From the NCBI GenBank assembly GCA_029891345.1, contig CM056994.1, forward strand, positions 141,940,457 through 142,004,456: 64,000 nt of DNA. The letters are read 5' to 3'. Position numbers and translations under genes: made by a program. The notes beneath the pieces were generated by a model. The model did not search any database. It was not told the origin of the DNA and was given only the letters and a program-made list of their open reading frames with translations. This DNA comes from Dryococelus australis (lineage: Eukaryota; Arthropoda; Insecta; Phasmatodea; Phasmatidae). Positions 1 to 47,740 of the stretch are shown here, one piece after another (positions within the stretch are counted from its first letter, which is position 1; every line of letters starts with the position of its first letter).

Positions 1-480
1 ATAACTGGTATAAATCTATGTAAACACGTAAAAAAATCAATAGACATAATTTGATGTGGTGAGCCCACTAATTGCCTTCAAGAAAAGTATTAAATTAATA
101 TAAAATTGAACAAATGAAAGCCTCCAAATTATTTCATTTTTAGTTAAATATAATTATTTGTCTTGCTGCAGTATGTAAAAATATCTCTTACGAATATCTT
201 ATTAAACGATATGTTTAGTTTATTTTCGAGATAGAGTACACGAATAGTTATTTATCATAAAATGAAACATTTAATAGGACAGAAAAATGTGAATGTTATA
301 AACAAATTAGTGGAGAAAGAATTTAAAATTTAAATCTGCCATCACGTTAGCGAAATGAAATGGGTGTATACGTAATGTTTGGAATGTTTTAGATAAGACG
401 TGGATGAAGTGACATAGTGGATCAGCGTAGTAGCCTAAGGGAAAAATGCTCGTAAATTATTAAAATGAAGTAAATGGCTG
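1..480. other. AT-rich unannotated stretch
   Basis: No coding frame of note, no repeat and no RNA-like structure is visible here. The base composition matches the general AT-rich background of the window. Confidence 0.6.
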
Positions 481-499
481 GAACTTCATAACAAATTAA

Positions 500-1144
500 T
501 TCCAGTTGTGCGTCAATTTACCTCTGCAAGTAAACAACACGGTGACAACAATTTTTTCCTCCCGCTAAATATTCCGGGATATAAGTTCAATGAGATAAAT
601 TATACAGGGCATTTAACGGCGTTTCTCGTTCTGAGCAGGAGAAGAAAATGTTTATTCCTCGTAACATCCTCACACTCTACACAAACCATTCCTCTTCGCA
701 ATCATTCTACTGTCTCGCAGTCCGTGGCGCGGCTCGGGTGCGCCGACTCCAGTCGTCCCACTCACTTTCTTTCAGTCTCTCTTCCCCTCTTCCTCTTCTG
801 CGTGCACCACCACTAGATACACATTCATTAGGCGAGTGTTTATACAGAGCGGCCTTTACCATAGGTCTGGCGCTGCGCCCCCTCTCTCCAAGCAACACGG
901 CTCCCAGGAAACCCTTACCCTTTTTCCACTTCTCGTTCGCTGCCTCTTGAGTTGTCTCCTGTGAGTGGTTCTCGCGGGGTTACAGCAGCGTATCGGGGTC
1001 AAGCCCCCACCTACTACACTGGCCTGCAGAGCGCCCAAAATATCCCTGCACAGAGATCCGGCAGGGAAAATGGTGCATTGCACAACGGCACGTGTGTGGC
1101 CTAACTGAGAACATTTTCGCTAGGGACGGGGACGTGGCGTTACA
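500..1144 (-). repeat. GC-rich LTR-like island (possible solo LTR)
   Basis: This island is clearly richer in G and C than its flanks. Read on the minus strand it starts TGTAACGCC at 1144. A TATAAA box lies at 839-844 and an AATAAA polyadenylation signal at 651-656, so the order promoter then poly(A) signal is what a long terminal repeat would show. I see no gag or pol remains beside it, so it would be a solo LTR; the far end and any target-site duplication are not clear. The second LTR-like island near 6 kb begins with a similar TGTGACGG on the same strand. The island could instead be an unrelated CpG-type promoter. The short open frames inside it look like chance products of its base composition. 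Confidence 0.3.
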
Positions 1145-1149
1145 CATAA

Positions 1150-1590
1150 AATCGTTCGCCGTACAAAGTTTACTAAATTTTCGCTTTGCCTAAAAGTAAT
1201 TTCCCCCACAGACACTTGACCCCCCGGTCAGTTAACCTGATTTTGACTTCAGTGCAATTCTTTTTCCGACAGTAATCTTATCTAAACCGTTTTTAAGGTA
1301 CTGTTCGAGTAAATTTCTTGACAACAGAAACAGAGAGGAGACCTACATGCATAATAACTTACTTCAAAATTTTTTACATTTAAGAACAAGCTGTTTTACG
1401 TATTGTGCGTGTTACACAATAGCACTACACTACATTGGTTCCTTACTGGCCATTCAAAAAGAAACGCCGACCGAGATCGTATTAGAAATATTGCAGTTCT
1501 AATTCAACAGATTTTGTACAAAAAGTTTTATTTTTAGTTAAAATGTTTTTAGTTTTCGTTTACACACAAACTCAAACACACACACGATAT
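1150..1590. other. unannotated stretch
   Basis: I see no gene or structured repeat between the GC-rich island and the CT microsatellite. Confidence 0.5.
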
Positions 1591-1591
1591 T

Positions 1592-1595
<4 letters not shown>

Positions 1596-1645
<50 letters not shown>
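1596..1645. repeat. (TC)n microsatellite
   Basis: About 25 uninterrupted CT dinucleotides. The RERERE tail of a minus-strand open frame across it is only a product of the repeat. Confidence 0.95.
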
Positions 1646-1648
<3 letters not shown>

Positions 1649-2319
1649 CAGTCCTCGACAGATTGCATGAAATAAGGAATTGTTAGTTTACCGTGTGTTG
1701 ACATATTTGTTACGTAAAAAGAACACAACAGGCTTTTATCAACAACTGCAATAATCGAGCACTCTTTCGTGTGAACAGTAGCATTACATATCAGGTTAAT
1801 GTATTTTTTAATGATAGGAGTAGTGGGCGTATATGGAAACGGTTGCGCAGGCATCAGGGAGAGAATCTGAGGATCGACCTTGAATGGCATCGATCTGAAA
1901 TGTTTCTTACCCCCTTCCCCCTACAATCACTTTTTTTCAGTGAAAATCGTACTTTTTATCCGAAAATTTTCTTGCAATTCCTTTTCGACTTAAAAATTTC
2001 CCGTTTTTCTTTAACAATTTGCAGTTTTTTTTTCCAAAAGCACCGAGCATCAAGCGAGCTCCATTTTTGCGAAAACGAGCCAATTCAGGTGATTTGTGGG
2101 GCTCATTCCTTCTAGAACAAACAATGCAGTATCCGGGAAATCAATGAAACAGAGTTAACATAATAATTATTTTATAAAATTTAATACATAATTATAATTA
2201 AAAAATTTAAAGTTGTTAATATTAAGTGTTATATATTACCAGGCTCGTCTTTTCAAGATACATACCATCAAGTTTTCATACCATCATTCAGTCTCGGTTT
2301 ATACTCGTTATCATTTGAC

Positions 2320-2850
2320 GTTGTCTCTCTCTCTTTCTCTCTTGTCTCTCTCATTCCATCTCATTCTCTCTTTCCTTTCTCTTTCTCTCTTTCTATCTTT
2401 CCATCTCTTCCTCTCCTTCTATCATGTCTGTCTCATTCCATCTCTTTCTCTCTTTTATTTCTCTCTAACTGTCTCATTCTCTTTATCTAATGTCTCTCTA
2501 TAATTCCATATGTTTTCTCTGAGTCCTCCCATTTTATTGTGGTTTCGATCTCTCTCTTTCTTTCTTGCATGTCAGATTGGTTTTCTCTCTTTCCCTTCTC
2601 TCTTTTCTCTTTCATCCAAACTCTTTCTATCTTTAGTTTCTCTCCCATTCCATAGGTTTTCTCGGAATCCTCCCATCTTTTTATTATATCATTTATTTCT
2701 CTCACTCTCACTCTATTTCTCTCTTGTCTCTCATATACGCATTTTATCTTTCCTTTCTCTGTTGCCTCACACATTCGTTCGACCAATTACTCACATTTGT
2801 TCGATTAGTCGCATTCTCTCTTTCCTTTTCTCTGGTCTCTCAAATACATT
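2320..2850. repeat. degenerate pyrimidine (CT) tract
   Basis: About 530 bases of TCTCTC, TTTCTC and CATTC patches. The plus strand is nearly pure pyrimidine, giving Ser/Leu/Phe-rich pseudo-proteins that are artefacts. The reverse-complement counterpart lies at 11690-12200 in the right arm, so the tract is an ancestral part of the repeat and not a local expansion. Confidence 0.85.
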
Positions 2851-3889
2851 CGACACTGCCGTCTACATAGTTCCTTCATCGCCAGCTAGAGTGCGCGAAT
2901 TTTCAGTGTATATATTTATTTACGAATTTAAAAGGTAATTTTCCATACAGGAGATGGCATATAAACAATTATTGTAAAGGTTATCCCAGGCAGGACTTAG
3001 TAAAACATATTCGATTTTCAATACCTTATTTTTGAAAATCAGAAATTTTTAAAAATATTTTACTTAACTTAATTTGTTTCTACTGTTGTACAAAAATTAA
3101 GTCGACTAGGCTTGTAACCACGTACACACATGCTGACAGTTCGGCCAGGGCAGATGTGCCAACTGTGACATGCGCGTGCAGTGATGTAGGAAAGTACCGC
3201 GCGGGGAAAGAAAGGGAGTCCAATGGCCGAGAGGCACTCAGTTGGCCGGCCTTATCAGACATGTATGAAGCGATACATTAATAAATAAGTAGAATTATTT
3301 AAAATTATTTTTTTTGTCATTTTAAAGTGCCGAAAAACATCTGTGGTAAACACATTAAAATGTCGCTTAACTGTTTTTGATATGTAAAACTTGGATAGAA
3401 TAATGTAAATTGAGTAAATTTCACACTTCGCATAACACATGGTAACATTAAAAAAAACTTCATGCCCGGACAGTATTATAACCCGAGACATTTGAGTTAG
3501 GAGTCGGGCATGCTAGTCACTCAGCCAACAAACGCACAATGCAACGTAGTGCCTTAATGTTGGATGTAAATTTCCAAGAAAAACTTCCGAATTCCCTCAT
3601 GTAGTTACGCAAACATTTTTAATGTTTCCTTTTTTTTTTATCAATGCTTATATGGCTCAAGAATACTATAGGGTTTCTTTTGTTTTTTTGTAAAGGAAAA
3701 CGACAATATTTCAATCATTTGTCCACACAGAACACACAAAAGCCAACATACAGCCCATACCAGTGACACAATCAAATTCTTCTCATACCATCCATAATGC
3801 CAACTGACACCAGTCAAAATACGTTAACCACCCATACCAAACACTCTTAACTCAAGCATGCCTTAGCATTACAGGACTCACCAACACAT

Positions 3890-4260
3890 ACATACATCCA
3901 TAAATGACCCATAATGAATCCAAAATGAATACAAATTACTCTAAATGACATCGAAATAGCTCTAAATGATGTCAAATGACTCCAATATTATTATAAAATG
4001 ACTCCAAAATTATTCGAAATGACTCCAAAATGACAATAAACGGCTTTAAATAACTACGAAATGACCCTATATGACTCCCAAATTACAATAAATGTCTCTA
4101 AATGACACAACGATGACTCCAAAATGACTCTTAATGACTCTTAGTAAATCTAACTGACTCATTGACGACTAAATAACACAAAAATTATTCCAGTTGACTA
4201 CTAAATTGCTCTAAATGATTCGAAAATACTTTAATAAATTAAAATGACTCCATAGCCCCA
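3890..4260. repeat. TGACTCC-type minisatellite
   Basis: A run of degenerate 10-12 base units around AAATGACTCCAAA, repeated some 25-30 times with many substitutions. The inverted counterpart at 9000-9140 reads as GTCATTTTGAGTCATTT units but is shorter. The copy-number difference between arms suggests expansion or contraction after the arms were formed. Confidence 0.8.
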
Positions 4261-4821
4261 CATATACGTAACTCAATAACTCCATCGGTTAATCGATCCA
4301 CAAATCTAAATGAACGGATGCTGAATAACTCGCCATCCATACCAATAAAAAGCTAACCATCACACCTCAGATGTTCGAAACAAAATATGTGTAACCCTAC
4401 TGACCAGGAATACAGGATACTATAACAACCATAACCCTGCATACTGCATTCATGCAACACATATCGCATTGTATATGCATCATGTAAACTACTAATTTCA
4501 TAACCCCCCACACCATCAGTTAACCCCACCAACTATAACATATCAGGTAGCGTACCTCCAGCATACTTAACAACCATATCGATAACCCATTAATACCGAG
4601 TATCAAAACCGATATAATAATTTTCACTATGACACTAGATTGCATCAGCCATGTGTCGTCGAAAGCCAAACATCCCAGCCTACCAACATATTATACCATC
4701 TGAATATATCGACGAACCACCACAGCAGATAACCATACCAACCATACCATGCAGTTCAAACCATATCATTCGCTCTAACCCAAGCAAACCTTAATCATGT
4801 GCTGTTAACGATAAAGACCAT

Positions 4822-5570
4822 ATAAATCACCAGACCTCCAAATTACAAATCGATCATAACAGGCACTGACATGACAAAAGTCATGGGATACTCGTCTAAT
4901 AACGTGTAGGCACCCCTCTAGCCCGATGAAGTGTCGCAACTCGATGTGGCATGGACTCCACAAGTGGACAGAAGACCTCTGAAGAGATGTTAAGCCATTC
5001 TGTCTCACTAGCTGACCAAAACTACCTGGTATTTCTAGTTTCATGATCTTGGATGCGAGTGTCTCTCTCCACTATGTCCCATAAATGCTCAAATGGGTTC
5101 ATGTCGGGGAAACGTTCTGGCCACTCCCTTCGCTGTAACTCTCCAGAACCAGTCCTGGATATCCACAGCCTGATGAGATGGCACATTTTCCTGTTGGAAC
5201 ATCCCAACATTGTCAGGAAAACTGAAGTACATGAACGATTGTAAATGGTTACCAATGAGAGTTTTGCAGCAGATACAATTGAGTTTTGTGGGTGCATTGA
5301 CAAGTGGATCCAACCCATGCCATGTGAACAAACTCCACACCATTACGGAACCACCATCAGCCTGCATGTTGCCTTGTTGACAACTGATATCCACAGCCTC
5401 ATTGGGTTTGTGACATGCCCAAACCCTGCCATCAGCCTGAAACAACCTGTATTAAGATTTATCGAACAAGGTCACATGTTTCCAGTCCTCCACGGTCCGA
5501 TTAGCAACCTCACGAGCCCAAGTGAGGCATTGTACCCAGTGTGATGCTGTTAACAGGGACACTCTGGTCG
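4822..5570 (-). pseudogene. Tc1-like transposase, C-terminal remnant
   Basis: Minus-strand frames read as the DDE half of a Tc1-family transposase, the enzyme that cuts and rejoins transposon ends. Visible landmarks are RTVEDWKHV near 5500, GGSVMVWS near 5340, a degenerate form of the DNAxPH motif reading ENVPSHQA near 5180, and the C-terminal signature WPERFPDMNPFEHLWDIVERD near 5085. A degenerate C-terminal tail follows to about 4850. The second catalytic Asp of the usual QDNAxPH block is replaced, and the reading switches frame at least twice (open pieces 5445-5089 and 5318-5022). The N-terminal DNA-binding part is missing. The piece sits exactly where the left arm of the inverted repeat stops matching the right arm, so it probably inserted into or broke that arm. 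It is a dead copy. Confidence 0.85.
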
Positions 5571-5604
5571 GTCATCTTCCATATTCCATGGAAGCTAATG
5601 AACG

Positions 5605-5880
5605 TACTTCACACTAGCGAAAATATACCAAGTCCATTTGGGACTCTGCAAATTACAAATTCAAACACTGCTTCTCCAAAAATGAAGTATTTTATCTACA
5701 CACAAATGAAACACTTCTGTGTCCATACTGGGACACTACTCATCCAGAGACTAAGCCTTTAATCATCACACGAGTGAAAATATACTAAGTCCATATGGGG
5801 ACTCTGAAAATTTCGAGTTCAACACAGCTCCCCCAGAGACTAAGTCTTACTCACAGCCTTACTTCGTAGTTCATACTTAA
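5605..5880. repeat. two-copy tandem duplication, period about 157
   Basis: The segment from 5611 (ACACTAGCGAAAATATACC, GTCCATTTGGGACTCTGC) recurs from 5767 (ACACGAGTGAAAATATACT, GTCCATATGGGGACTCTG). Each copy is followed by CAGAGACTAAG, at about 5747 and 5836. The copies differ at roughly one base in six, so the duplication is not recent. Confidence 0.75.
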
Positions 5881-6227
5881 CTCTCTAGTCGGACGACACC
5901 CAATCTCTTCTTGACCAAGGCGCGCTCCACCTTATTCCTTGGTCTTTTCCCGCTCGCCGGCGGGGCGCATCTCTGCCCAACCCTCCTCGCGCACGCCCAT
6001 TTATACTCGCAATCATTACTACTACTAGTCTCCCTCCTCGTTAAGATCTCACTGCAACATCCCCTATACGATCGTGACAACGCGATTATACGATCATACG
6101 CCACGACGTCTTTACTGATATATATTCCCCGGCTGCTTCCGCGGAGGGAAAACACAACCAATGGGGTTCTTACGGACTAGAATAACAGTTCCTTCGCCTT
6201 GCGGACGGCGGACCGCAACCCGTCACA
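5880..6227 (-). repeat. second GC-rich LTR-like island
   Basis: On the minus strand this begins TGTGACGGGTTG at 6227 and carries a clean TATA box in the setting GAGTATAAATGGGCG (6000-6005), then a GC-rich leader. The minus-strand 94-residue frame across it (6161-5877) is not a recognisable protein. The start and the promoter layout resemble the 0.5-1.1 kb island and suggest a solo LTR of a Gypsy-like element. No internal retroelement sequence is visible, and the far end is uncertain. An ordinary TATA-containing promoter of another repeat is the alternative. Confidence 0.3.
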
Positions 6228-6399
6228 CATCTCATCACTGTAAGTAGCGGCACACCAAGATACAGCAAGCAACAGAATTCCTTAGTGCATACTTCAAAGA
6301 AACGAAAACTATTTGTGAGGGCCATACATCCATCACAATATAAGTCTAAAAAATAAATAAATCAATCAAAGAAATTCCAATTTATCATTTATTTTAAAA

Positions 6400-6733
6400 C
6401 AAAGTCTATAAGTGAGTGGTTTGTAGGACTGTAGATGGCTCTAACATAACTATTTACTCTAGTGAATGCTCTCTAGTATATATAATATCCTTGTATGTTG
6501 GTGACATGTTTGCAAGTATAGTTCGAAATGTTTTCCTAAAAGGGAAATAAAATGAAATACTGGTATCGAATGTTCTCTAATAAATGGAATATCTTTAATG
6601 CGTATAGGTAACAGCTGGTTAAATGCTCGCTCATATGCTTCTTTGAATATGTGTATGAAAATATTATTCGCCTTCGAATGATATACAACTGTGGTATATA
6701 GTTTGTTTATTTATTTTATGTAGGATGTGTTTG

Positions 6734-6812
<79 letters not shown>

Positions 6813-8400
6813 TGCACACCTATTTTTTAAAAGAGTTTTGCACAGTAAATGTTTTTAAAGTACTGCATTAAATTTGTTGTGATCTCTTTAATTACCCAGA
6901 CTGGATTTTAGATATGATATATTCTTTTCTGGTATTTTGCTATGTTCACGAAAGGAAAAATTGTTGGTGTGTTGACTGGTAGCAAGCAATGAATGTTTAG
7001 ATATTTATCTCCCTATTGGTTTGTGTGTGTATGTTTGAAAAATATAGTAAAAATGGATATTTACTTTTTACCCTAAAATTATTGTTCGCATGAGTTGTTG
7101 ACAAAACAATCAGTGGCATTCATTCGTCAGTTGAGACCTTTGTGTAGTATTTTTAGTGATGGACGAGATCTATGTATGTCATAAGTCATGCGATAGCATA
7201 GCAGACATGTTCTGTAACGAATGGTAGAATAGATATTCGCAAGGGTTGTATCGATTCACTTGCAAGCTGCCATATTAGGTGAATGTGATTTGGTAGGGTG
7301 TGTGGATTAAATGTCCTGTTGTCAACATGCACTTCCCCTAGAGGCAATGTTGGAACCAGTTTCACCCTCCCCTACCCTTTATCTTCACCTCCTTTGCAAG
7401 TTTGATGGCTGTACTCGTGTCTACCGTTCGAGAGATCTAACCTCTCGAGAGATTTGCTAGAGATATGAGTGCAGTCTCTTTTGTATTATATACTATTATA
7501 TATTATGACCTGTATATATTCATTGTTTGACTGGTTGCTGGTGTGTCTTACTTGTATGGCCTATCAGTACGTTAGTAGCGATGTCTGAGATGTGTGATTG
7601 GAACATTGTAGTAATTTGGGTAGACAGTAGAGGGAAGATTTTTTTTTACGGAATAGCATAGTCTCTGAGTGTAACATGCCTGTATGGCTGTTAAACAAGA
7701 GGGCAGGGGTTATGATGACAGGTGTGAGGGATAATATAAAAGGTACAAATCTATTGCTTGAATATTATGTTGGTCAGTTTAATAATATGAATTGTATGTA
7801 GGCTCATCATTGGTAGAGGTGCTTTTTAATGTTTGTACTATATGAACTCTCTGTGTGGTTGTTATATATAGCTGATTTTTGGTAATATGTTTTGTTAGTA
7901 TGCCTGACTGATAATTTTTTGTAGGAATTCTCTAGAAATGGCTCAAATTGATGTTGTTACATGATGGTACTGTCTGTCGGTATGGAATGCCTCTATGATT
8001 TGTTATATTATGGCTAATATATCTTGATGGCATAAACTGTCAGTATGACTTTGTTGAAAAAACTGTTATTTGTGGAGTTGGTATAACCATTATGTTGTTT
8101 GGTGTGGCCTGATCACATGATCGATGAATTAGGAAGTATGACAAAAATGTAGCTTCGATGATGTGCGAAGAATGGTTTGTTTGTAAGAGCGGAATTGTTT
8201 GATGACATGGTACCTGGGTATTAAAACAGTATGGATATCATAGATAGTTAAATTATTGCTAATGATCTTATGATAGCATCATTGGAGCTTATAATAGGAA
8301 TATTTTTAGTGGCTCGGCTACTGGAACGGCTTTTTATATGTGTAACATGCCAAGTTAGATGCGCTGAAATGATAGTCAATATAGTTGACTATTTTGATTG
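6400..8400. repeat. G/T-rich strand-biased segment
   Basis: The plus strand is dominated by G and T, with many GTATGG, TTGGTATGG and TGTTGTTAT patches but no fixed period. The bias continues into the right arm (to about 9480). The left arm shows the complementary A/C bias, but no left-arm counterpart of this 2 kb is visible. I see no coding sequence; the open frames of 74-84 residues at 8376-9455 come from the skewed composition. Confidence 0.7.
6733..6812. repeat. (TA)n microsatellite with (CA)n end
   Basis: About 35 TA dinucleotides with one phase break, then CACACACACA. This is a simple repeat. Confidence 0.95.
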
Positions 8401-9479
8401 TTTAGTAAGTAAGAGGTATGGAATTTGTTATGGTCTGTATCGTTAACAGCACATGAATAAGGTATGCTTGGGTGAGAGCGAATTATATGGTTTGGGTTGC
8501 ATGTTTTGGTTGGTATGGTTATTTGCTGTCGCGGTTCATTAATATAGTTAGATGGTATAGTATGTTCGTATGTTGGGTTGTATGGTTTAGGACGACCCAT
8601 GGCTGATGCAATCTAGTGTCATGGTGAAAAGTATTATATCGGTTTTGGTACTCAATATTAATGAGTTATCGACATGGTTGTTAAGTATGATGGAGGTATG
8701 CTAACTGATATGTTATAGTTGTTGGGGTTTATTGATGGTGTGGGGTGATATGAAGTGAGTAGTTTATATATTGCATATACAATTTTATTTGTGTGGCATG
8801 ACTGCAGGAAGCTGGGTTATGGTTGGTATAGTACCCAGTATTCCTGTTCAGCAGGGTTACTCATATTTTTTGTATGTCTGAGGTGTAGTTGTCCGTATTT
8901 TATTGGTATGGATGGTGAGTTATCATGCATTTCTTCTGTTAGATTTAAGGATCGATGGAATGATGATGCTATGGATTTATGGAGCTATGTGGTTATGTAG
9001 TCATTTTGAGGTCATCTGAGTCATTTAGAATCATTTTGAGTCAATCTGATGGCAATTGGAATCATTTGGGTATCATTGAGAAACTTTTGAGTCGTTTAGT
9101 GTCATAAGATTAATTTTGGTGTCATTTAGATAAATTAGGGAGTTGTTATGGGCCATTTATGGTTGTATATGCGTGTTTGTGAGTCCTGTAATACTAAGGC
9201 ATGCTTGAGTTAAAAGTGTTTGGTATGGCTGGTTATTGTATTTTGACTGGTGTCAGTTGGCATTATGGAGGGTATGAGAAGAATTTGATTCTGTCACTGC
9301 TATGGACTGTAGGTTTGCTTTGTGTGATCTGTGTGGATGAATGGTTGAAGTATGCTAGAGCTATAGTGTGTTTTATTGTTGGTAGGTATAATCAGTTTTG
9401 GTTAGTAGAAGAAGTAGAATGGGTGTTAGATTATTGGCTGGTCTCAGCTGTATAGTTGCTCGAGTTACGATAGATATCA

Positions 9480-10126
9480 AGCTTGGTGTATTGAGTCGTG
9501 CAGTTGAATTTAATTTTTTTCTTTAGTATGGTGGTATAGTGTCTAGTGTACATTTGACGGGTTTCAGCCAGTAGAGCAGAAAGTTTGAGCATAAAGCAAA
9601 AATTTTGGTAAGGTCCAAGTGAGTAACACTGTTCCTATATGTAAGTAAAAATATTAAAAGTTAAATACTTTAAATATTAATAATAAATAAAACATTTCTA
9701 ATAAATTAGTCTGGGATTGCAAAAAAATGTTATATGTAAGTTAAAATGTAAGTACCAAAAATTTAACCTTAAAACAAAAAGAAACTTATTCCTGGCTTAT
9801 GTAGGTCTGCGTTGGTCGCTAGAGGAGTTGGGGCGCATAAGTTACAGAGGGTGGATCATTGAATGTTAAGGTGCCTGCTTGGGAGTATATAAGCAGCAGG
9901 GTTCATTTTATGGAGCTGTTTGACAGTGGCATTCATGAAATTTTGTCGAGAAAATTGAATGGCCATGGGTTCTGATTGGATGCTTGTAAGTATAGACTAT
10001 CTTTAACTGTGTATAAGCAGATTATATTCACTTCATGAAATGTGAACATGCTGTTTTAAAGACTATGTTAATGGTGTGGAAAAATTTAAGATTTATGTTT
10101 TTTCATTTGTAGTATTTGTATGTATG

Positions 10127-10196
<70 letters not shown>

Positions 10197-10965
10197 TATA
10201 TGATATAAATGAATAAGTATTTAATTTTTGATAGTTTTGCACCCTGCCTACTCCCCTGAAATATAGAGAATACGATGGCGCTTGGTTTAGTCACATAAAC
10301 CTAAATTTAATAAAATCCGAGTAGGATGGTTAAGTCTACAAAAATCGTGTAGGCTAATAATAATATATATTGTATAATATTTAGACTTGAAGAGAGGAGA
10401 CCAGAAATTATATTGAGAGTACTGTTTTTTCTACTCTACATACAAATTCAGTACAACTTGAAAAAAAATTAGAAATTAAAATTAAAAAACTAAATTACAT
10501 GAATATTTTTTATTTCTTATTTTAATCTTGTATCGTAACCTCTTAGTTCTAAACAGATCTCGTTAAGAAAATCGAAATATTACTTTAAGCTTATTACTAT
10601 GGCTATAAATGTCTTAAATATACATTCTTCGAGCTAGAAATGTTACTTGCATACTGGATTTAGCGAGCCTGCCTCCTAAGAGTTCACAATCTATATTCAT
10701 CTGTGACTTTAAATATTCACTTCTTGACGAGACCGACTTGATACATAATTATTAAAAAAGAATATATAAAAAATTATTTTATTTGAGCATAGTCACTCAT
10801 GTTTCATACTCAGATTGGAAATAAGGAATTGACTCTAATACAGTACATTGCTTACCTTGAAATGAACAAAAAACCGCTCTAAATTATAGTATTCTCAACC
10901 TATATACGCATTACTTAGAAATTTAACGAAAAATTAAAGATATTAATGTAATTGTACGAGAAAAT
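9480..10965. other. extra 1.5 kb in right arm
   Basis: This stretch is missing from the left arm. It holds an AT microsatellite and AT-rich DNA with no gene. The part from about 10400 onward resembles 25400 onward (shared GAGCTAGAAAT, ACTTGCA and ACTGGA blocks in order), so it probably belongs to the original element and was lost from the left arm. Confidence 0.5.
10131..10202. repeat. (TA)n microsatellite
   Basis: Nearly perfect TA repeat flanked by GTATGTATG. The Tyr/Ile-rich frame on the minus strand is only the repeat translated. Confidence 0.95.
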
Positions 10966-11026
10966 ATGCTAAATTCGCTTGGACATTATATACATCATGA
11001 AGGCACAACAATTAATTGTGTGTTTG

Positions 11027-11095
11027 GTGGCTGAATGGCTAGCCTGACTGACTTGTAACAGAAAAGTTCAGGGTTCGAGTCCTGAATGAAAATAC
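11027..11095 (+). repeat. tRNA-like segment (pol III A and B box)
   Basis: TGGCTGAATGG fits the A-box pattern and, about 45 bases on, GGTTCGAGTCC is a textbook B box. The cloverleaf is poor: the anticodon stem does not pair, and no acceptor stem is visible. I read it as the tRNA-derived head of a SINE or of the large repeat family, not as a working tRNA. A diverged counterpart lies inverted at about 3455-3535 in the left arm. Confidence 0.55.
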
Positions 11096-11689
11096 TTTCT
11101 TTTTTTAAATGTTGCCAGCTGTCATGGAAAAGTCTGAGTTTACATAATTAACATTAGTTAAACCGATTTCTACATTAAAATGCATTTAAGATACATTTTA
11201 CTGTATTTTTCAAAGATTTTTTTTCGGCCTATTTAAAGAATAAATAAAATACATTTAAATAATTTGATTTATTTATAAATGTACAGCTTCGTAGACATCT
11301 GATCAACAAGACTGACCAACCGAATGCCTCACAGTCATTGGACTCCATTTCTTTCCCTCTGCGGTGCTTACCTATACACGTGCATGTCACAGTTGGCGCA
11401 TCTGCTCTGGCCGACCTGTCAGCCTGTGTGTACGTGATCTCAAGACTAGTTGACTTAATTTTTGTACAACAGTAAATTCAAATTGAATTAATTAAAATGA
11501 AAATTTTCAGAAATTAAGTATTTAAAATCGAATATATTTTAAAAAGTCCTCCCTGGAATGTACTTTAGAATAATTTTTTATATACCTTCTCCTGTATGGA
11601 AAAATTACATCTTAAAATTCGTAAATTAATGTGTACACTGGTGATTCGAGCACTCTGGGAGGCGATGAAGGAACTATGTAGACTGTGGT

Positions 11690-12200
11690 GTCGAACGGAT
11701 GAGGGACAAAAGAGAATGGAAAGAGAAAATGCGACCAATCGAACAAATGTGAGTAATTGGTCGAACAAATGTGAGAGAAAAGAGAGAAAGGAAAGAGAGA
11801 ATGCGAATGTGAGAGACAAGAGATAAAATAATGTGAGTGTGAGAGAGAAACAAAAGAATACAAAATGGAAGGACTTCGAGAAAACCTAAAGAATGAGTAA
11901 GAAAACAAAAAGATACAAAGATGTAATGATAGAAACAAGAGAGAAAGCGAATATAAGAGACAAAGAGAAAGGGAAAGAACAAAACGACAAAATGGAAAGA
12001 ATCCGAGAAAACCTTTGGAATGATAGACAAGAGAGATAGATATGGAATGAGAGATGAAGAGGAAAAAAAGAGAGAAATAGACAGAATGAAAGAGACACGA
12101 GAGGAGAGAAAGAGAAATAAAAGAGAGATATAGATGGAATCAGAGAAAGAGATAAAGAGAAATAAAAGAGATAAACAGATAGAAAACACGGAATTACAGA
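11690..12200. repeat. degenerate purine (GA) tract
   Basis: GAGAGA, AAAGAG and AATGAGAG patches over 500 bases, the inverted partner of 2320-2850. Open frames on either strand here come from low complexity. Confidence 0.85.
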
Positions 12201-12699
12201 GCATGAAAAAACGAGACTGAATTATGGTATGACATCAAGATCGTATGTGCCTTTGAAAGAGGGGTCCGGTGATATGCAACTCTTAATACTTGCACCTTTA
12301 AATGTTTTAATTATGAAATATATTTAATTGTATTAAAAAATTATTAAATTAATTTTACTTTTATTGATTTCTCAAATACCTCATTGTTTTGGTCTAGAAG
12401 CAATAACAAGCTCCACAAATCACCTACATTGGCTCGTTTTCCCAGAAATGCGGCTTGCTAGATGTTCGGTGCTTTTTTAGGGAAAACGAGAAATGTTTAA
12501 GGGGGAAAGTGAAATTTTAAGGCATATTTAGGTTAAAATGTTCAATTTGAGTGAAAATGAGCAATTTCGGGAGAAAATGCGTGAAAAATTTTAGGTCGAG
12601 GCCATTCAAGGTCGAACCTCAGTACCTCTCCCTGATACCTGTGCAGCCGTTTCCCCATACTCAAACTACTTAAATATTTTATATTCTTTAATTTTTTGC

Positions 12700-14950
12700 T
12701 AGGATATTATAATGAAAATAACTTCATGGGCCACTAGAAAAATATAAAGTTGCACGGCCAAACATAGCGTACTTATGTGAAGAGTTTGATGGAAATCAGT
12801 TATTTTGTGAGATATGGCATAAAACACTTTTTTCTTATTTGGTACTGTGGCGCAAAATTTACTTAAAAGAAAGGTTCTCTATATGATACTGTTAATAGAA
12901 ACCGTCAGCATGCTAAGTTTGGTTAAATATGGTTAAATTGTTTAATAAATGAGGCAATTTATCTAAACGGTTTAGGTTGTGAACACAGTATACAAAATCA
13001 GTGCCTGAAACAACATAAAACATACAAATTTTCATAGCATTCTCTAGCACTACTTGCGAGTGAAATTGTGGTGGAAATAAGTTTATTGTTTTCGAAAATG
13101 TGCCAAAATATACGACACTATTTTATCTCGCACTATTTTACGAAAGGCCGGCAGAATACGATCCCTTAGTAGGCTTATTTGTACTTCTAATGTATAAAAT
13201 TTGGTTGAAATTTGTTGAATATTTACCAACCTAAGTTATTTATTAAACGTCACTTTAAAATAAACGCTTGCCGCATCTAAAACATGAACGTTTACAAGCC
13301 CTCTTTTAGTACTATTTGCCTGCAAAATTTGGTGAGAATTGCTAGTTTTGTCTTGGGACATGAGGTAAAATCTCCATATTTTTCATTTGACTATATTCAG
13401 AAATGAATATCAAAAATGTTATGTATAAGCACATCAGATGATTTTCATAAATACTGCAAGCATAAAATTTCTGGGGCACATATAGCTTACCAAAAAACAA
13501 CAAAATATTTTCATGTTTATTTTGAAAATATGTGACAATCCCCCTAAAAACATAAATTTTAATGGAATTGAAGTGTGAATACAGTCCAAAAGTTTGGTGA
13601 GTTTCCTGATATAGAACACGAAAGCTCAAGTCTGCGCATCATGCTATCTTCACAGTATCGTCCAAATATTTTATGTTTTACCTAATTTAATGATTGCTGC
13701 CAGTTTACTACGTAAAGCTACGTAAAGTTATGTAAAAATAGCCTACTAAAAAAATATTTTTATATATCGGCCACTCTGAAAATGAGTGTCTGATCCACTT
13801 AAAATATATGCATAATATGACCTACCACAGTACAAATTCTTAGCCAAATTTGGTGTGAATCGATCGATTTTTAAAAAATATATAAGATAAACTCTTTTTT
13901 ATGCGGGACTATCTTTAAATTGGTACAAAAATAAGGCCCTATAAACACGTATTTGATGGTTGTAACAGAAACTACCAGCATACAAGTTTAAAATTAGATT
14001 TGCTGTTTCGTAGATATAGTATCCTAAGCAAAAATGTTTATGTGGGAGCCATTTTGAAAATACGTATCTGAACCACTCAAAATATATTGATTTACATGGC
14101 CTGTGATAGGCCTATTTGTGTACAAAATGTTGCTGGAATCTCTAATTTTTTTTTGCACAAATCTGACGTTAGAATTTTAATACGTCGTGTGATGTATTCT
14201 TTTGAAGTGGCAGACAAAATAGACTTTGTATACACGTATTTGATTCTTGTTATATATTCTGTTATCATACATAGTTATTTTGGAACTGGTAGCATGGCGT
14301 GGACGATATAGCACACTAGACTAAATTGACTTTAGTCAGTCAATAAAAAAATTAACTTTATGGCCATCTTATGAAATACAATTTTAAATCACTGCAGTAG
14401 TATTGCTTGATTTTCAAATAATATAAACTTTTGATAGAATATAAACATTTCTTTATTCTTATATAGTGACATTTTACAAATAGCGGGCAAAAGGGGCAAT
14501 ATGTTGGCTTATATCATGCTTTCAGTAGATTGTTTCAGCACAAAAATTTTCGTTTACATAAACCAAACGTTATGGTATTAAAATAGAATATTCTTTCTAA
14601 CGGGTATTACAATATATGTGCCTTATCAATTTAACATTCATGTGTTTGATAACTTGGCCTACGGTAGTATTACTACTTGCCAAACTTGGTGACAATTGCT
14701 GAAATAGTTTTCGAGACATAATGAAAGCTTTATTTTTTAATGTAGTGCTATAATCCAAAATATCCGACCAACAAATATATATATTCCTATATTCAGTGCT
14801 TACATTATGCACTGTCAATATTCAATTTGTGGTTTAAATCGTTTGAATGGTTCCCGAAATATAAGAAAAAGAACTTAAATTTTAAAATGGCTGCCATTTT
14901 ACAATTAAGCACTCGCTAAATTGTTTCAAACTATAATAGTCCGAAGTCCT
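12700..14950. repeat. degenerate about 270 bp satellite array, copy A
   Basis: A block recurs several times, roughly every 260-290 bases: GAGATATGGCATAAAAC near 12811, GGGACATGAGGTAAAATC near 13355, AAATTTGGTGTGAATCGATC near 13846, and AAACTTGGTGACAATTGC near 14682. Between these lie CAGCATACAAGTTT-type and ATTTTGAAAATAAGT-type blocks. The units are strongly diverged from one another. The same family forms the array at 39190-45240. No coding frame is conserved between units, so this is a non-coding satellite or an old tandem element. Confidence 0.7.
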
Positions 14951-16390
14951 TACTAATTACTACACTCATATGAAACAAAAAATTGGTCACCATGAACGAA
15001 TGGCGTGAGTACAGCAAAGGTTACCACGGAGTATCGTCACAGTTTGAAATATAGTGCGATTATTGTTAAATGCGGTTTGTTTGTGTGGATGCGCCACTAG
15101 AGGGCATAGATATCCCTCCATCATTCACAGCTGCAAGACACCGAATAAGTCCTTAGTAGTAGTGTGAGCCACGGATCAAAGTTCAGTGAACACGCGGCAT
15201 GCAACGACGGCGCATTCCAGCTGGATGAGTTTGAGAGATACTATGTATTAGGTCTCCGAGAAGCAGGTTGGACCCATTTACGGCTCTTGAACTGTTATCC
15301 TAACAGTTTGAGTCAGTGTTGGATGCAGTAGAGTCAATAGGGTACACACACCCTTTGAGAAGACTGTGGTCGACACCTGGCGGATCGCCAGAAGGAAACA
15401 TCGTTTCATTGTGCAACAGGTTGTAAGCACTCCACAGGCGTGACTGTGGAGTGACCTGTCCAGAGACATGTCACGGCATCTGGGGTTACGCCTGTGTCCA
15501 CCAGTGCCCTATGCAAGCGCCTAGCAGAGCGGGATACGTCATCGTAGCATCCCGTATGATGTCTACCATGAGCATCGCCGAACACGCGTGACCTTCTGCC
15601 GTAACAGGAGGCATGGTAGATTGCGGACTGGCGACGATTGGCGATCAGCGACGAATAACGGTTCTGGTATGCCTAATTCAAGTCTGGAGACATCCTGGCA
15701 AGAGCTGTGATTCACACTTCATTTTAGAGAGTCATACCGCCCCAAAGAGAGGTGTCAAGGTGTCGGGGTGCCAGTACCTATAATTCGCGCACTCCACTAG
15801 TGTTGAATGAATGAACCTTGTGAGCGCGACGAAACATCCAGGAAATTCGGCTACCATGTGCGCTCCCCTTCCTGATGCAGCTTGACAAACCCAGTCTCTA
15901 GCAGGATAATGCTCAGCTTCACACAGCACGGGTATCATTTTGCCTGCTTCCTGGGCCAGCAAGGTCTAGGTAGTCCTCTCTCCCATCGAGAACGTTTGAA
16001 ACATGGTCGGATGGCAATTTCGACCAGCTGCAGCTACGGTGGACTTGGAGGGTCAGTTTCACGAGCTGTGGCATGATCTTACTCAGGATAACCACCGATG
16101 TCTCCTTGCCTCCTTGCTCCACCGTATCGCGCTTCTTTCCGTGCTAAGGATCATCCACCTAAGTTCATCCTGCAAGTGTTGGTCACCTGCAAAACAGGCT
16201 TCATCTGAAATATTTGGATTTCTATCTGTATACACACTACCATTTACTGTGCCTGTACCATCACTTACGTGCCTCTGTGATTTCACCTTCAGTGTGATCA
16301 ATTATTTAGCAAATGAGTTTATGCTTGTTTCGAGTCTGATGAAATTCCATTCACGCATTCAAAGTCTTGTTGGATGGGGATGCGAGACAA
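14950..16390 (+). mobile_element. Tc1-like transposon, copy 2
   Basis: The DNA from about 14950 (CATATGAAACAAAAAATTGG, then ATGAACGAATGGCGTGAGTAC) is shared with the 60.0 kb element, which marks the 5' end of the family. It runs through a decayed transposase and ends near 16390, before a CA-rich stretch. I did not find clear terminal inverted repeats. It lies directly after the satellite array, so it may have inserted at the array's edge. Confidence 0.75.
15199..16370 (+). pseudogene. Tc1-like transposase, decayed but near full length
   Basis: Fragments of a Tc1-family transposase lie in order in three frames. They include an N-terminal helix-turn-helix (LREAGW near 15255), the block near 15380-15560, the central HRRTRVTFCRNRRHGR block near 15580, and a broken DNAxxHTARV block near 15900. 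Near 15960-16120 comes the C-terminal piece with RQFRPAAATVDLEGQFHELW-like sequence and LTQDNHRCLLASLLHRI. I chose the ATG at 15199 because it opens MQRRR just upstream of the helix-turn-helix and matches the start at 60266 in copy 3. Many stops and at least four frame changes make it dead. Several smaller open frames on both strands between 15278 and 16497 are pieces or shadows of it. Confidence 0.85.
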
Positions 16391-16394
16391 GCAC

Positions 16395-30853: not shown

Positions 30854-31008
30854 GTCTCACCAATTTTTATTATTTTTATATTGGTGGACTATTTATACAT
30901 TTACATAGGCGTCCATCATCGGTATCTCTTGCGATCCCGATGATGGACGAGTCTGTGAGTGTTAAAATAGTCTACCTATATAAAAATAATAAAAACAGTT
31001 AGTGAGAC
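30854..31008. repeat. palindromic MITE with inner hairpin
   Basis: Terminal inverted repeats GTCTCACCAA...TTTTTATTATTTTTATATTGGTGGACTATTT and its diverged reverse complement close a 155 bp element ending GTGAGAC. Inside is a perfect second inverted repeat, CGTCCATCATCGG (30910-30922) and CCGATGATGGACG (30937-30949), around a 14-base loop. There is no coding capacity. The target-site duplication is not clear, so the superfamily stays open. Confidence 0.75.
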
Positions 31009-31689: not shown

Positions 31690-32480
31690 GATAGAAGGGA
31701 AATAGTACTTGCAGAGTACGGCTCACCATGGGAGAATTCCCTGACTTAGGCTATCTGACACCATGTATGCATGCAATTTTCCTGACACTGTGCAGGTGTA
31801 GTCCTGCTAACACTGCTCTTGCCATGCAAGCACGGATAGTTTTACTTTGATGAGGTTAGCTTCCCTGCCTGTTCATGCATATGTTGTCATTAGCCTCCTT
31901 TCACCTACGGACGTCTCCAGCACACTTCGCCTGTCGTAACAGATGCGTCTGCCTCGCGAGCCTGTCGGTGCGTGGCTGCAAAGCTAGACGCATTAAATAT
32001 GTTTTTTTTTTTCGTACAACAGTATAAACATACTGCCTGTATGATTGGTTTGTCGGTCTTGTTTGTCAGTTGTTTTGCCCGGTCAAATGTCCATAAACAA
32101 GTGTTTTCGACACTTTTTTTGAATAAGTTATTCAGGATTCCGGGAAGAAATGTCAGTAATTCGGCAGATGAGGAGAGGTTCGAATGTCTTCGGATATTCC
32201 CAATTTAATAGGTCTTACAACAGACGCATCGACTTCTTCGGGAGAATCGCCCAAAGCAGCACAATCCTCATTAAAGACCAAGTCAAAGATTTTTGATTAA
32301 CCAGTGCCGTCGCCATCTTAGAGTGGGTCGCCTAATACAGCACCATCATCGACTTCTTCGGCCCCGATACAATTGAAGTCACCATTGGTTTCATAAAGCC
32401 ATCGGTGATGTTAATGATGAGGAGATATATTCGTATACTGACATGGTGCTGGGAGGTATTAAACAACGTCTTGCATGACC
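31690..32480 (+). mobile_element. Polinton-related fossil fragment
   Basis: Two parts match the 52.5-53.2 kb part of the Polinton fossil, in the same orientation. CTGACTTAGGCTATCTGACACC and the CAGGTGTAG...CACTGCTCTTG block (31741-31830) match the repeat units at 52515-52620. The Ser/Thr/Pro-rich coding-like segment (32225-32400), with repeated ATCGACTTCTTC, matches 52960-53160. It is an old, broken piece of the same kind of element, or of a related copy, with neither integrase nor polymerase core remaining. Confidence 0.5.
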
Positions 32481-32484
32481 AGCT

Positions 32485-33305
32485 TTTGCTCTGATATGCA
32501 GCAACTGGAAAAGTGTAAACGCTGAATTTAATTAAGGAATTATCTTTTAAGAATTTTGAAGATTTGCAAAACTGGAGTTTCAGCAGCTAAGAAACGACCA
32601 ATACTTATGGTAGGTGGCATTTCTAAATGAAAATATTATCGTTGATGGCTGCTTAAATTTATGTTATATGATTAGACGCGTATTTGTGGGTACAAAAGTC
32701 TAATGCACATGCGCGGGTGACATTAAGTAATAAATAACGTATAAATTGACAGAGGAAGTTGAAGAAAGACTGATTAGACATAATTTTGGGTTGTAGTGTT
32801 CCTATGAAAAATTGAAAATTTTGATGAAGAAATTTCTAACAAGCATTCAAGACTGCGAATGTAACATTCTATAATACTGATAGTATAAAAAATAATGTAG
32901 AGGTAATAAAAATACATTATTGTTGAGGGTTCTGGTTCGTTGTTTGCTAGGGTAGACTCTCTTGAGCTGTCTACAACAATATTAATTCATTGCATAAATA
33001 GTGAACCTGTTGTTGGAAAGGCGCTACATGAATGGTATGCAGACTGAGTTGATTCTTTTTTTGTTTTTATTGCAATACGATCAATGTAATATATATGATT
33101 TCAAAAAACATAAATATATATGAATTTTTTTTTTCGTTGCAGTAAACAATATCCTGCTTCATTTCAATTTGGTTTCGTAAAATTTGTCTTGCAAATAACA
33201 TTCAAATACTAAACAAATCATATATTTATAATACATACAAAATAATATCACGAATAAAGATAAATTTATTAAACAAATGAGCTCTCGTACCTTGTGAGTT
33301 AGAAA
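32485..33305. other. unannotated AT-rich stretch
   Basis: I see no gene or repeat. Confidence 0.5.
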
Positions 33306-33310
33306 AAACT

Positions 33311-33700
33311 TCAAGTAGTTTGGACCTCGTCACAGTTTTGAAAAAATGGACATTGGCAACATCGCAGTTCTTTTACAATACTATTAAAGCATGATTTACC
33401 AGTGAAATCTAGCAAAAAAATGCTACTGCAATGGACAAAGTAGAGGAACAGAGATTTTATATTAAGAGAGGACAGATTTTGTTCTTTTATTTTGTGCATT
33501 TTGAAAAGGTATACAAATTTTTTATACTGACGAACAATATTTTTCTTAGAAAAGTGATATGATTTTCTTTTGTGTTTGATGTGATATCTATGTCCAAGAA
33601 ATTTTAACTTTATTTCTAATATTCTCTGTAAATGTACTATCATATCTTTAACTAGATCTTGCCCTCGACATTGTCCGTATGGAATTCGTGTTTCTGTCAC
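33311..33700 (-). other. open frame of 129 residues, unknown
   Basis: An uninterrupted minus-strand frame rich in Lys, Phe and Ile, with a cysteine-bearing C-terminus (CCQCPFFQNC). It is AT-rich like its surroundings and matches nothing that I recognise. It lies about 160 bases beyond the stop of the Helitron helicase fragment and on the same strand, so it could be a transposon-carried piece. A chance frame is at least as likely. Confidence 0.2.
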
Positions 33701-33858
33701 AGATTTTTTTTAAAATTATCAGCATGTTTTTAAAGTAGAATAGGTACATATTTAAAAATAGAAATAATAGTGAAATGAAAGTCCAAACATAAGATAATTC
33801 CTACTGTTAAGTTTGCAGTTGTTTTTAATCGGCAATGTAAAAAAAAAAAATTATGCAT

Positions 33859-34603
33859 TTAAAAAACTTCTTTGTGAACAATATTATTTTCCATTCTAGA
33901 ATGTGACACCAAAATAACCAAGCTGAGGGGCGAGCTTACTTGCAAGTACGCCACGTAAAACTGACCGTGGGTGAACAGTCCTTTCTCAAGTCAACTCCTG
34001 CTAATTTGAGAGTTTTCCGCTGCGAATTATATATCGTCATCGTGAAGCACACTTTGAGGGGAAACTGCAGTCTCTTGAATTCAAATGACGGTCATTGGGC
34101 ATCTCAAACGCTGTTGCTCCCTGAGATGATCCAGTTAAAATAGCGGCCTCGAATACATTGCGATGCAGAGCTTCGACTTGCAGGCCAGTGCCATTACAGA
34201 GTTTCGGTGGCTTCAAATTTCTGAGTAACATAACAGGCGCACCCTCACGCAGTCTAACCCTATGGTATGTGAGACACGGGGAATATATTGTTAAAACATT
34301 CCTCTGTGTAATTAACTGCCTCGTCTGTATTTACTATCGAGTCTATTGATCTGGTACAATTTCATCCGCTTCGAATGATTTCAGCAAAATTTCTTTGATG
34401 ACCGCTGCTTGATAGTTTTTGAGGTCAGAATGGCTATCTCACACAACTATTCCATTGGCTTGTCCTGAATTTGGGAAACGTTTGGAAAAATATTTTCTCT
34501 CAGCTCCTGAACGGTAGTTACTACAGTACACAACTCGTCTAGTATAGCTATCATGCTGTCGGTTTCCCGATAATCACCGTTTCCTAGTTTGAGCAAAAGG
34601 TCT
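33859..34603 (-). pseudogene. Helitron Pif1-like helicase, C-terminal remnant
   Basis: Helitrons move by rolling-circle replication using a Rep-helicase protein. The minus strand encodes, in order, the end of that protein: LLLKLGNGDYRETDS near 34595, DELCTVVTTVQELRENIFPN near 34545, ILTSKNYQAAVIKEILLKSF near 34400, and LREGAPVMLLRNLKPPKLCN near 34245. Next come LQVEALHRNVFEAAILTG and the FPSKCASR block near 34040. The GQFYVAYLQVSSPLSLVIL ending follows, with a terminal stop at 33859-33861. GAPVMLLRNLxPPKLCNGT and the GQFYVAxSRVSSP motif are hallmarks of this helicase. The FAMTINKSQGQ motif VI that should precede GQFYVA is badly damaged. At least four frame changes or stops occur. The upstream Rep domain and most helicase motifs are absent. 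Confidence 0.85.
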
Positions 34604-45950: not shown

Positions 45951-46198
45951 GATTTTATAATAAGTATATAGTTTGGAGACTAATAAATAACATCTCGTGT
46001 CTCATTAAAGACATTAGATTTTTATTTCTTATATCATTCTAAGAGTTATTATTTCCAAATCAATATTTTTTTTTTGTATTTATTTTTTAACATTTACAAA
46101 TATTAACTTTTATATATAATATTAACTTTGAAGTTTCATGTATAATATATTATTATAATATTTTTATTATTTTGGTTTAATTTGAATATATGTTATTT

Positions 46199-46740
46199 AG
46201 TTTTAATTAACATACTTTTTTTAGGTATTTAATGATTTAATATAATTTTTTATATATAGTATATTTTATTTAACTTTTTAAATAACTGCATTAAGTGATG
46301 TGTCTACAGATTCATATTTTTCCAGGAGTTAAGAAAATGTGGTTAGCAAAATATATATTATTACGTGACTACGACCAGTGCCTTATTGGATGTTTATAAG
46401 CTTACATAAAATATGTATTTGTAAATACTGTATATGCCAAGTGTTATATATTATGAACATTGGTTATTCACAGTTTTTCGATTTTTATTTAAGTACAATA
46501 TTTATTTTGACTATCCCAGACTAATATATTTACATGTATGGACTATGTAACCTAAGTTGTATTTAGGAAATATTTCCTACCATTATGCTAGTACTTGTGA
46601 AGTTTTTTTGAAAACACCGTCCCATAATCATACATAACATTTCAGTATCCACTTTATGTAACCTAACCATCATGTAAGAACTCTTAATACATATTTTATT
46701 TCTCTCGACATTCACTTACCCTAACTACCACACTCTAGCC
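46199..46740 (+). repeat. left terminal inverted repeat of the Polinton fossil
   Basis: Pairs by reverse complement with 54110-54707. Shared blocks, in order from the outside, are AACATACTTTTTTTAG, AAGTGATGTGTCTACAGA, TTATTCACA...TTTTCGA, GACTATCC, TTTCCTACC...ATGCTAG, GTATCCAC, and TAACCTAACCATCATGTA. About a quarter to a third of positions differ by eye. The exact outer end and any target-site duplication are not resolved. Confidence 0.7.
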
Positions 46741-46744
46741 TCAT

Positions 46745-47740
46745 CGCCAGAGCCCTCTTCACCGCTCCTTCTAACAGTCTTATTTAACAACCATATCGAT
46801 AATAAAATAGTACTAAATACCAAATATATAACACCTTTCACCATGACATTAGCTTGCCACATTCATGTTATTAACAATACAGGTTATATCCACCACCATA
46901 CCTCAGAATTACTGATCAATAATAGCATTCAACTATAATGACTGCAATTTCAGCCACTCTAACTTCACCAATCACACATAATTATAAACAAGCTATACCA
47001 GCAGCCGAGCCTATCAAATATTGAATCACTAGGGGTTTAGCCCGTGACAGTGTTTTCAGTATGGTCACGTGCCTAGAATATTTACACTGTAAAAAAAATT
47101 GGTTTTCATAAAAAGACTGACAAATTAGTTTTTGATATTTGTCTATCCACTGGGCCACTGTGGCCTCACTTGGAATAGCTCTAGCCACTTGACCACTGAG
47201 GCCCCACTTATTTAACTCAACATTGAAGCGAGTCATTTGGAGTAAACAAAAATGATATTCCATTACTTTTATATATCTATGCTATAATCTCTATGCATTA
47301 ATACAAAACTTCCATAAGAATAAAGTAATTAAAAAGTGAGCTTTTTAGGGCCAAAAGTCATAATTGCGTAATCTGATCTTGCTGAAATTCTATATTGACA
47401 TATAATTGACCCTGAGGATTCGCTCTGCAAAATTTACAGAACTTCTGTTGAGTTTCAAGGGACTTTGAAGTACTACAGATGGACAGACATACATACAGGC
47501 AGAGATCGTCCTATTATATAATAGGATTAGCTCCAGTCGTGGTAACATAAGATCCATACTATTAAATTAACAATCTATCACACCCATATCGTGTAATTTC
47601 GAAGATACCATCCGATTATACTAAATAAACATACCAGCTAATCATTATAACTAAACTACCCAACCAACCATTGCACTCTTACAAACCAATTACACAAATA
47701 TACCATTCTCCCCACACCATCGATAAAACGCTCATATGCA
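46745..47740 (-). repeat. AC-rich insertion, relative of the giant inverted-repeat family
   Basis: TTTAACAACCATATCGATAA at 46784 and ACCATGACATTAGCTTGCC match 4565-4650 of the left arm, in the same orientation. CCATACC-type patches resume at 47530-47740. Between them (about 47000-47520) lies another insertion ending in GACAGACATACATACAGG and CCTATTATATAATAGGATTAG, a tail pattern often seen at the ends of old transposons. No gene is visible. Confidence 0.55.

Follow-up and report, generated by a model that had tools for sequence, protein, structure and literature searches.

An old foldback element family with Maverick-like ends in the phasmatid insect Dryococelus australis

Introduction

Foldback elements such as Tetris, Galileo and FB have inverted arms of great length that are modular and contain tandem repeats, set around a short or variable centre, and in the published accounts, which are cited from excerpts throughout, they include transposase-less copies and vary in structure from copy to copy. 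For example, one Galileo copy of D. willistoni (copy 112) measures 9,021 bp, of which the arms make up 4,246 and 4,680 bp (PMC4168063), and Tetris of D. virilis has 8–10 bp duplications (PMC4079207). These two are the nearest published designs that we met for the element described here, a long imperfect palindrome in a 64,000-nucleotide stretch of the Dryococelus australis genome (assembly GCA_029891345.1, contig CM056994.1, positions 141,940,457 to 142,004,456 of the forward strand; hereafter the window). Its ends recall a different group. Vertebrate Mavericks most commonly end in 5'-(AGT)2//(ACT)2-3'; intact copies are flanked by 6-bp duplications and measure 16,862 +/- 1,678 bp, and the inverted repeats of Mavericks are 46–1,447 bp long (PMC8097293). 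Ginger elements, which are Gypsy-integrase-like movers with terminal inverted repeats, duplicate 4 bp (5 bp in TDD-4/5), and their inverted repeats measure ~40–270 bp (PMC2836005). Finally, snap-back genomes, in which a helper-dependent genome has become a near-complete palindrome, have been described for AAV (PMC8235507). We interpret the palindrome in the window as an old, internally deleted copy of a non-coding foldback family that was probably moved by a Maverick-type integrase.

Results

A long imperfect palindrome with diverged arms

Comparison of the window with itself by BLAST returned three inverted self-matches: 10885–12670 against 3670–1819 (72.7% over 1,879 columns), 8386–9080 against 4865–4169 (79.4%) and 8999–9353 against 4076–3706 (76.9%). 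Aligned jointly, the arms gave 2,729 aligned pairs and 356 gap columns at an identity of 0.818 and a Kimura two-parameter (K2P) distance of 0.21; the background, 36 unrelated 500-bp pairs treated with a similar aligner, had a mean identity of 0.63 and a maximum of 0.67. Arm-to-arm identity varies by part: the two parts of the body stand at 0.87 and 0.80 and the middle at 0.84, against 0.78 for the CT/GA tract and 0.77 for the outer block, and the lowest value, 0.70, falls around a tRNA-like piece. A first-pass annotation of the window had proposed a long imperfect palindrome at 1.8–12.7 kb, to be given up if the arm matches proved to be confined to low-complexity tracts. With low-complexity masking on, anti-diagonal blocks outside simple tracts persisted, the largest of 824 and 699 columns, so this objection does not apply. 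The palindrome at 1819–4865 / 12670–8386 is genuine, with an inverted match of ~2.7 kb of aligned bases, and is made up of the following parts.

1819..4865, plus strand: left arm; inverted match to 12670–8386, with an inner 1.1–1.5 kb deleted near 3670–3711
6338..12670, minus strand: right arm; matched by other genomic copies to ~6338, symmetric with the left arm for 8386–12670 alone
1819..1824, plus strand: left terminus AGTAGT; the inverted homology ends here, and starts in other copies are alike
12665..12670, minus strand: right terminus ACTACT (AGTAGT on the minus strand); the inverted homology ends here
1813..1818, no strand: left 6-bp flank GATAGG; 2 of 6 bases agree with TAAATA at 12671–12676
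2311..2765, plus strand: CT tract of the left arm; GA counterpart at 11778–12196
2766..3310, plus strand: conserved middle segment, 0.84 alike; counterpart at 11247–11777
3706..4865, plus strand: AC-rich body; GT-rich counterpart at 8386–9353
9354..10862, minus strand: right-arm segment without a left-arm counterpart; parts present in fragments X1 and X3 and in copy C17_181 (see below)
4866..6337, no strand: filler between the arms; Tc1-like transposase remnant (minus strand) and other unrelated sequence

The repeats, the CT/GA tract and the AC/GT body are modules of the arm. The annotation had listed five landmarks in mirror order across arms of about 3 and 4.3 kb, and three of them (the outer block, the CT/GA tract and the AC/GT-rich body) were not faulted. 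The remaining two failed in the form given. ARAGORN called 0 genes in the supposed tRNA-like segment and no Rfam tRNA match appeared even at E 5, and since neither program recognised a tRNA-like head, a tRNA-derived short interspersed element (SINE) within the arms was rejected. Exact copies of the TGACTCC minisatellite, said to lie in both arms, number 8 in the window (both strands counted), 6 of them in the left arm and none in the right, which holds just related TGACTC-type repeats as judged by eye. The extent given for the right arm proved too short: comparison with three old family fragments of the window (X1, X2 and X3) implies that the right arm continues past 8386, and it runs to ~6338.

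Matched along C17_181, the most symmetrical copy of the family, the left arm of the window copy reaches 4740 of that element with ~1768–2883 missing, the right arm spans 103 to 6725, and the 0.93-kb centre of the family was not found. Parts of 9354–10862 are carried by X1, X3 and C17_181, which shows that they belonged to the arm from the start and were lost from the left one. The window copy is a shortened derivative, its left arm having lost an inner 1.1–1.5 kb and everything past 4865. The left arm stops where the Tc1-like remnant starts; we presume the Tc1 likeness in part, and the lone PDB sequence match of the open reading frame (ORF) pieces at 5022–5451 was Sleeping Beauty at E 0.11.

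Convergent arm pairs recur in the genome

The annotation had offered either a foldback element or two head-to-head copies of one repeat, and had proposed a genome-wide search with each arm to choose between them. We searched the 3.415-Gb assembly (in which the window is C2:141940457-142004456) with a 161-bp query from the middle segment (3100–3260) and obtained at least 45 matches (121 first-look candidates, 40 scored); genome copy numbers given here are such first-look candidates, not counts. Ten loci were read 13–20 kb inward from the outer side, namely the nine best-ranked others and C17_181, which was picked as a visible pair, and two of the six non-window loci of an outer-end search (C14_91.3 and C17_180.9) were also read inward. 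A convergent partner arm was present at 7 of these 12 other loci (C17_61.22, C17_73.66, C2_140.4, C17_90.7, C5_122.5, C5_157.0 and C17_181), including 6 of the 9 chosen by rank, and this recurrence of long inverted arms as a pair supports the foldback option. With the window's arm as query, no partner arm was seen at C5_144.1, C1_224.7 or C3_161.5. The last of these has an inverted pair of its own just inside the arm match (1699–2085 / 9653–10026, 397 columns, 68%), which is perhaps a decayed partner and was left out of the count of seven. C14_91.3 holds a lone arm, plus a 93-bp body piece in the minus direction 13 kb farther inward, and C17_180.9 holds two arms in the same direction. Viral contigs, genome contigs and plasmids were searched with one stretch each and gave no match.

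The two outer ends of a copy also tend to match each other. Over the outer 300 bp of the six two-ended copies, identity within a copy was 0.73–0.82, against a between-copy mean of 0.68 and maximum of 0.77, and the nearest relative of an end was its own partner in 10/12 cases at 300 bp, 9/12 at 150 bp and 7/12 at 60 bp. The window's left end follows this pattern; its right end does not at 150 and 300 bp. Taken together, the recurrent convergent pairs, the pairwise-matching outer ends and the 6-bp duplications described below suggest that the pair is the transposing unit.

AGTAGT termini and 6-bp target duplications

The window copy ends exactly in AGTAGT...ACTACT. The same AGTAGT is found at L029 and L030, at the left end of C17_181 and at the right end of C2_140.4 (a terminus placed by eye from the motif), and the ends of other copies read AGTAGA, AATAGA, CGTAGA, AGTAAA, AGTAAT, AGTGGT, AGTTGT or AAAAGT. 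The 6-bp flanks of five other copies compare as follows.

C17_181: ATCAGC/ATCAGC, 6/6
C5_157.0: CTACTC/CTACTC, 6/6; found after the five-copy test, right terminus placed by eye from the motif
C17_73.66: CATAGG/CCTAGG, 5/6
C5_122.5: CATGTC/AATGTC, 5/6; right terminus placed by eye from the motif
C17_61.22: TATTTT/TCCTTT, 4/6

At the level of the family, a target duplication around the pair is therefore exact in 2 of 6 two-ended copies and agrees at 5/6 bases in 2 more. In a test on five copies, which included the window and left out C5_157.0, a duplication length of 6 at the AG terminus gave 22/30 matches, a score reached by 0/20,000 random placements. Lengths 5, 7 and 8 at this terminus do not stand out (10/35 for 7 and 11/40 for 8). 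A length of 8 shifted by -1 gave 26/40; registers overlapping the same bases are expected to score high.

Family anatomy and coding content

C17_181 is 17,559 bp long, and its arms (48–8194 and 9125–17606 of the fetched stretch; 8.1 and 8.5 kb) are inverted at 69–81% by block around a centre of 930 bp. The other two-ended copies measure 6.1–12.5 kb, C5_157.0 being 12,496 bp. The family thus has tandem-repeat modules in its arms and a short middle domain. The centre of C17_181 is common to C5_157.0 and C17_61.22 at ~80% and partly to C2_140.4 at 74–79%, and it occurs in either orientation relative to the arms. It contains broken frames with what we read as C2HC or C2H2-like finger spacing; Pfam hits below the curated cut-offs were obtained in one of three centre ORF pieces (best E 2e-5) and none in the other two. 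In a codon-position test, C5_157.0 paired with C17_181 gave an at best weak signal, second positions changing least in a few overlapping windows (lowest p 0.003). This bias was not repeated in the other two of the three copy pairs, and no selected gene is therefore claimed for the centre.

The arms gave no coding signal, the lowest one-window p for codon-position bias being 0.019 among 45 windows. Of the 29 ORF pieces of at least 70 aa in 1500–13000, 12 were scanned against Pfam and gave weak hits at E 0.017 and above, none convincing, and no transposase was matched in the arm ORF pieces scanned. With no codon-position bias and nothing convincing from Pfam in the 12 pieces, coding arms were rejected.

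An inner-body query (4300–4861) gave 2,218 first-look candidates, compared with the 121 of the middle segment, and among the 41 matches listed, 24 start at query position 34–36 (window ~4333). The inner body may therefore also occur on its own, as a more abundant module that has a distinct edge. At C11:111036120-111036921 (G000), five middle-segment matches follow one another ~170 bp apart; here a short tandem array has arisen from a piece of the arm, resembling the amplification reported for Tetris. At C17_90.7, 2.4 kb of self-complementary sequence (8923–11307 of the fetched stretch, L015 and L016; 74%) lies between pieces of another family copy.

Candidate helper integrases

An integrase ORF in the window (49571–50194, plus strand) matches Pfam rve at E 0.0021, which is below the cut-off, and we take it to be of the Polinton type. 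Its relatives are very common in the genome (at least 150 matches, 150/150 scored, 17,507 first-look candidates), which makes a helper from coding Mavericks of the same genome plausible. No Maverick ends, defined by the motif and a 6-bp match, were found around the window integrase. At another integrase locus (C2:322.93-322.95 Mb), the 20 kb read held inverted repeats of 28 and 34 bp alone and no long inverted ends. Near the integrase at this locus, 94 columns of L046 (~2185–2277; C2:322.932 Mb) match the foldback centre at 71% (E 1.3e-5), an observation for which we have no explanation.

Other family fragments and repeats in the window

Profile and relaxed BLAST searches revealed three further family fragments in the window, all colinear with the palindrome sequence.

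31886..32037, minus strand: X1, old family fragment; resumes at 26284–25320 beyond a 5.6-kb interruption
32927..33869, minus strand: X3, old family fragment; 32918–33039 is matched by other copies as well
46778..47723, plus strand: X2, old body fragment; interrupted at 47023–47525 (pieces 46778–47022 and 47526–47723)

Reversed-sequence controls gave AT-microsatellite matches, non-significant matches (E 2.7 and above) or none, and the opposite-strand controls matched one microsatellite and, weakly, two further stretches (E 0.005 and 0.016). Searches of the window found no inverted partner for X1, X2 or X3 in their arm parts. A second inverted pair (46193–46725 / 54713–54174, 74%, 556 columns) flanks the integrase ORF and partly touches X2. 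The window also contains a direct repeat (14959–15599 / 60011–60692, 65% alike), which we take to be transposon remnants, and a 158-column match of 30854–31008 to its own reverse complement (80%).

Discussion

The interpretation that we favour, and consider likely on balance, is that the window holds an old, internally deleted copy of a non-coding foldback family moved by a Maverick-type integrase. That it is a foldback family is well supported; the Maverick-type helper is inferred from the termini and the duplication length. Family elements would consist almost entirely of paired, inverted non-coding arms around a short centre with traces of zinc-finger-like frames. Such an element would have no enzyme of its own and would be inserted by an integrase that acts on the AGTAGT...ACTACT ends and leaves a 6-bp stagger, the mode proposed for Maverick/Polinton integrases; coding Mavericks of the same genome would be the source of this integrase. 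As the arms differ similarly within and between copies, the copies may have spread long ago in one old burst and decayed since.

Like Mavericks and Polintons, the family has AGT-repeat termini, 6-bp duplications and, in C17_181, a length of ~17 kb. On the other hand, no Maverick gene (protein-primed polymerase, integrase, ATPase or capsid) was convincingly found in the ORF pieces scanned, which for other copies are the three centre pieces alone, and the centre is zinc-finger-like; for want of Maverick genes in these pieces, the family was not filed as a Maverick. We do not call the element a Maverick, but it probably shares their mode of integration. Ginger elements differ in having shorter duplications (4–5 bp) and inverted repeats of only ~40–270 bp (PMC2836005).

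Several observations weigh against this interpretation. The window copy has no 6-bp duplication. A register of length 4 nested in the same bases, at a shift of 1, does as well as length 6 (15/20), and placing the right termini of C5_122.5 and C5_157.0 by eye leaves some freedom. Single or direct arm copies occupy 5 of the 12 loci, and the internal 161-bp block is barely more alike within copies (0.77–0.89, six pairs) than the between-copy mean of 0.79 (130 pairs). Polymerase, capsid and integrase were unmatched in the 12 of 29 ORF pieces scanned, and the 20 kb examined at the C2:322.93-322.95 Mb integrase locus contained no coding Maverick with these ends. Finally, Maverick inverted repeats are far shorter than the 8-kb arms of the family (PMC8097293).

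A more specific version, which we regard as possible but doubtful, is suggested solely by the ends, the size of the duplications and the length of a single copy. The family would then be a Maverick satellite whose snap-back genome carries, in both halves, a copy of one end of a Maverick-like linear DNA, so that the ends and approximate length of the helper were kept and its genes lost. Such a satellite would have borrowed the protein-primed polymerase, the integrase and perhaps the capsid of its helper, and would have died out after one ancient burst. Snap-back defective genomes are also known from adenovirus. The family shares with viral snap-back genomes, as far as the cited excerpts describe them, the near-complete palindrome of a helper-dependent genome; it differs in being integrated, multi-copy and old, and is known from sequence alone.

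Alternatively, the family could be a foldback element from one of the ordinary cut-and-paste superfamilies, Mutator-like or P-like in the manner of FB, Tetris and Galileo, and its likeness to Mavericks at the ends would then be accidental. We consider this rather unlikely. Its anatomy is familiar from that side, since tandem repeats in the arms are known in Galileo and Tetris (PMC4168063, PMC4079207), although the arms are nearly twice the longest Galileo arms in the excerpted text of PMC4168063. However, the duplications fit 6 bp and not 7 or 8, in contrast to the 7–10 bp of Tetris, Galileo and FB, the AGTAGT ends are the commonest Maverick motif (PMC8097293), and no transposase was matched in the arm ORF pieces scanned. 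Elements of the Mutator-like and P superfamilies generally have 7–11 bp duplications and a transposase of their own.

That a dispersed, one-armed repeat inserted twice independently and came to lie head to head by chance is improbable in our judgement. The single and direct arms at 5/12 loci, the lack of an inverted partner for the arm parts of X1, X2 and X3, the behaviour of the 161-bp block and the unduplicated flanks of the window copy would all suit it, but convergent pairs at 7/12 loci, end subtypes that match within copies and duplications that span the whole pair in other copies do not. A local, non-mobile inverted duplication of a chromosomal segment, for which the missing duplication at the outer ends of the window copy would also speak, is most improbable given convergent arms with similar ends at seven other places. 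Both coincidence and local duplication had been first leads, prompted by the single fragments in the window and the absence of a flanking duplication, and were overturned by the genome search.

In the literature searched, which was covered by title, there was no title on palindromic or foldback Mavericks, and we found no earlier description of a foldback family with Maverick-like ends. The 8-kb arms are, to our knowledge, among the longest foldback designs known and, helper aside, may be a source of rearrangements. If the ends are to be taken at face value, Mavericks would themselves be parasitised, by elements that retain nothing but their ends and length. Maverick particles have not been observed in animals (PMC8097293); such parasites, if real, would argue that animal Mavericks have a linear form that replicates or is packaged.

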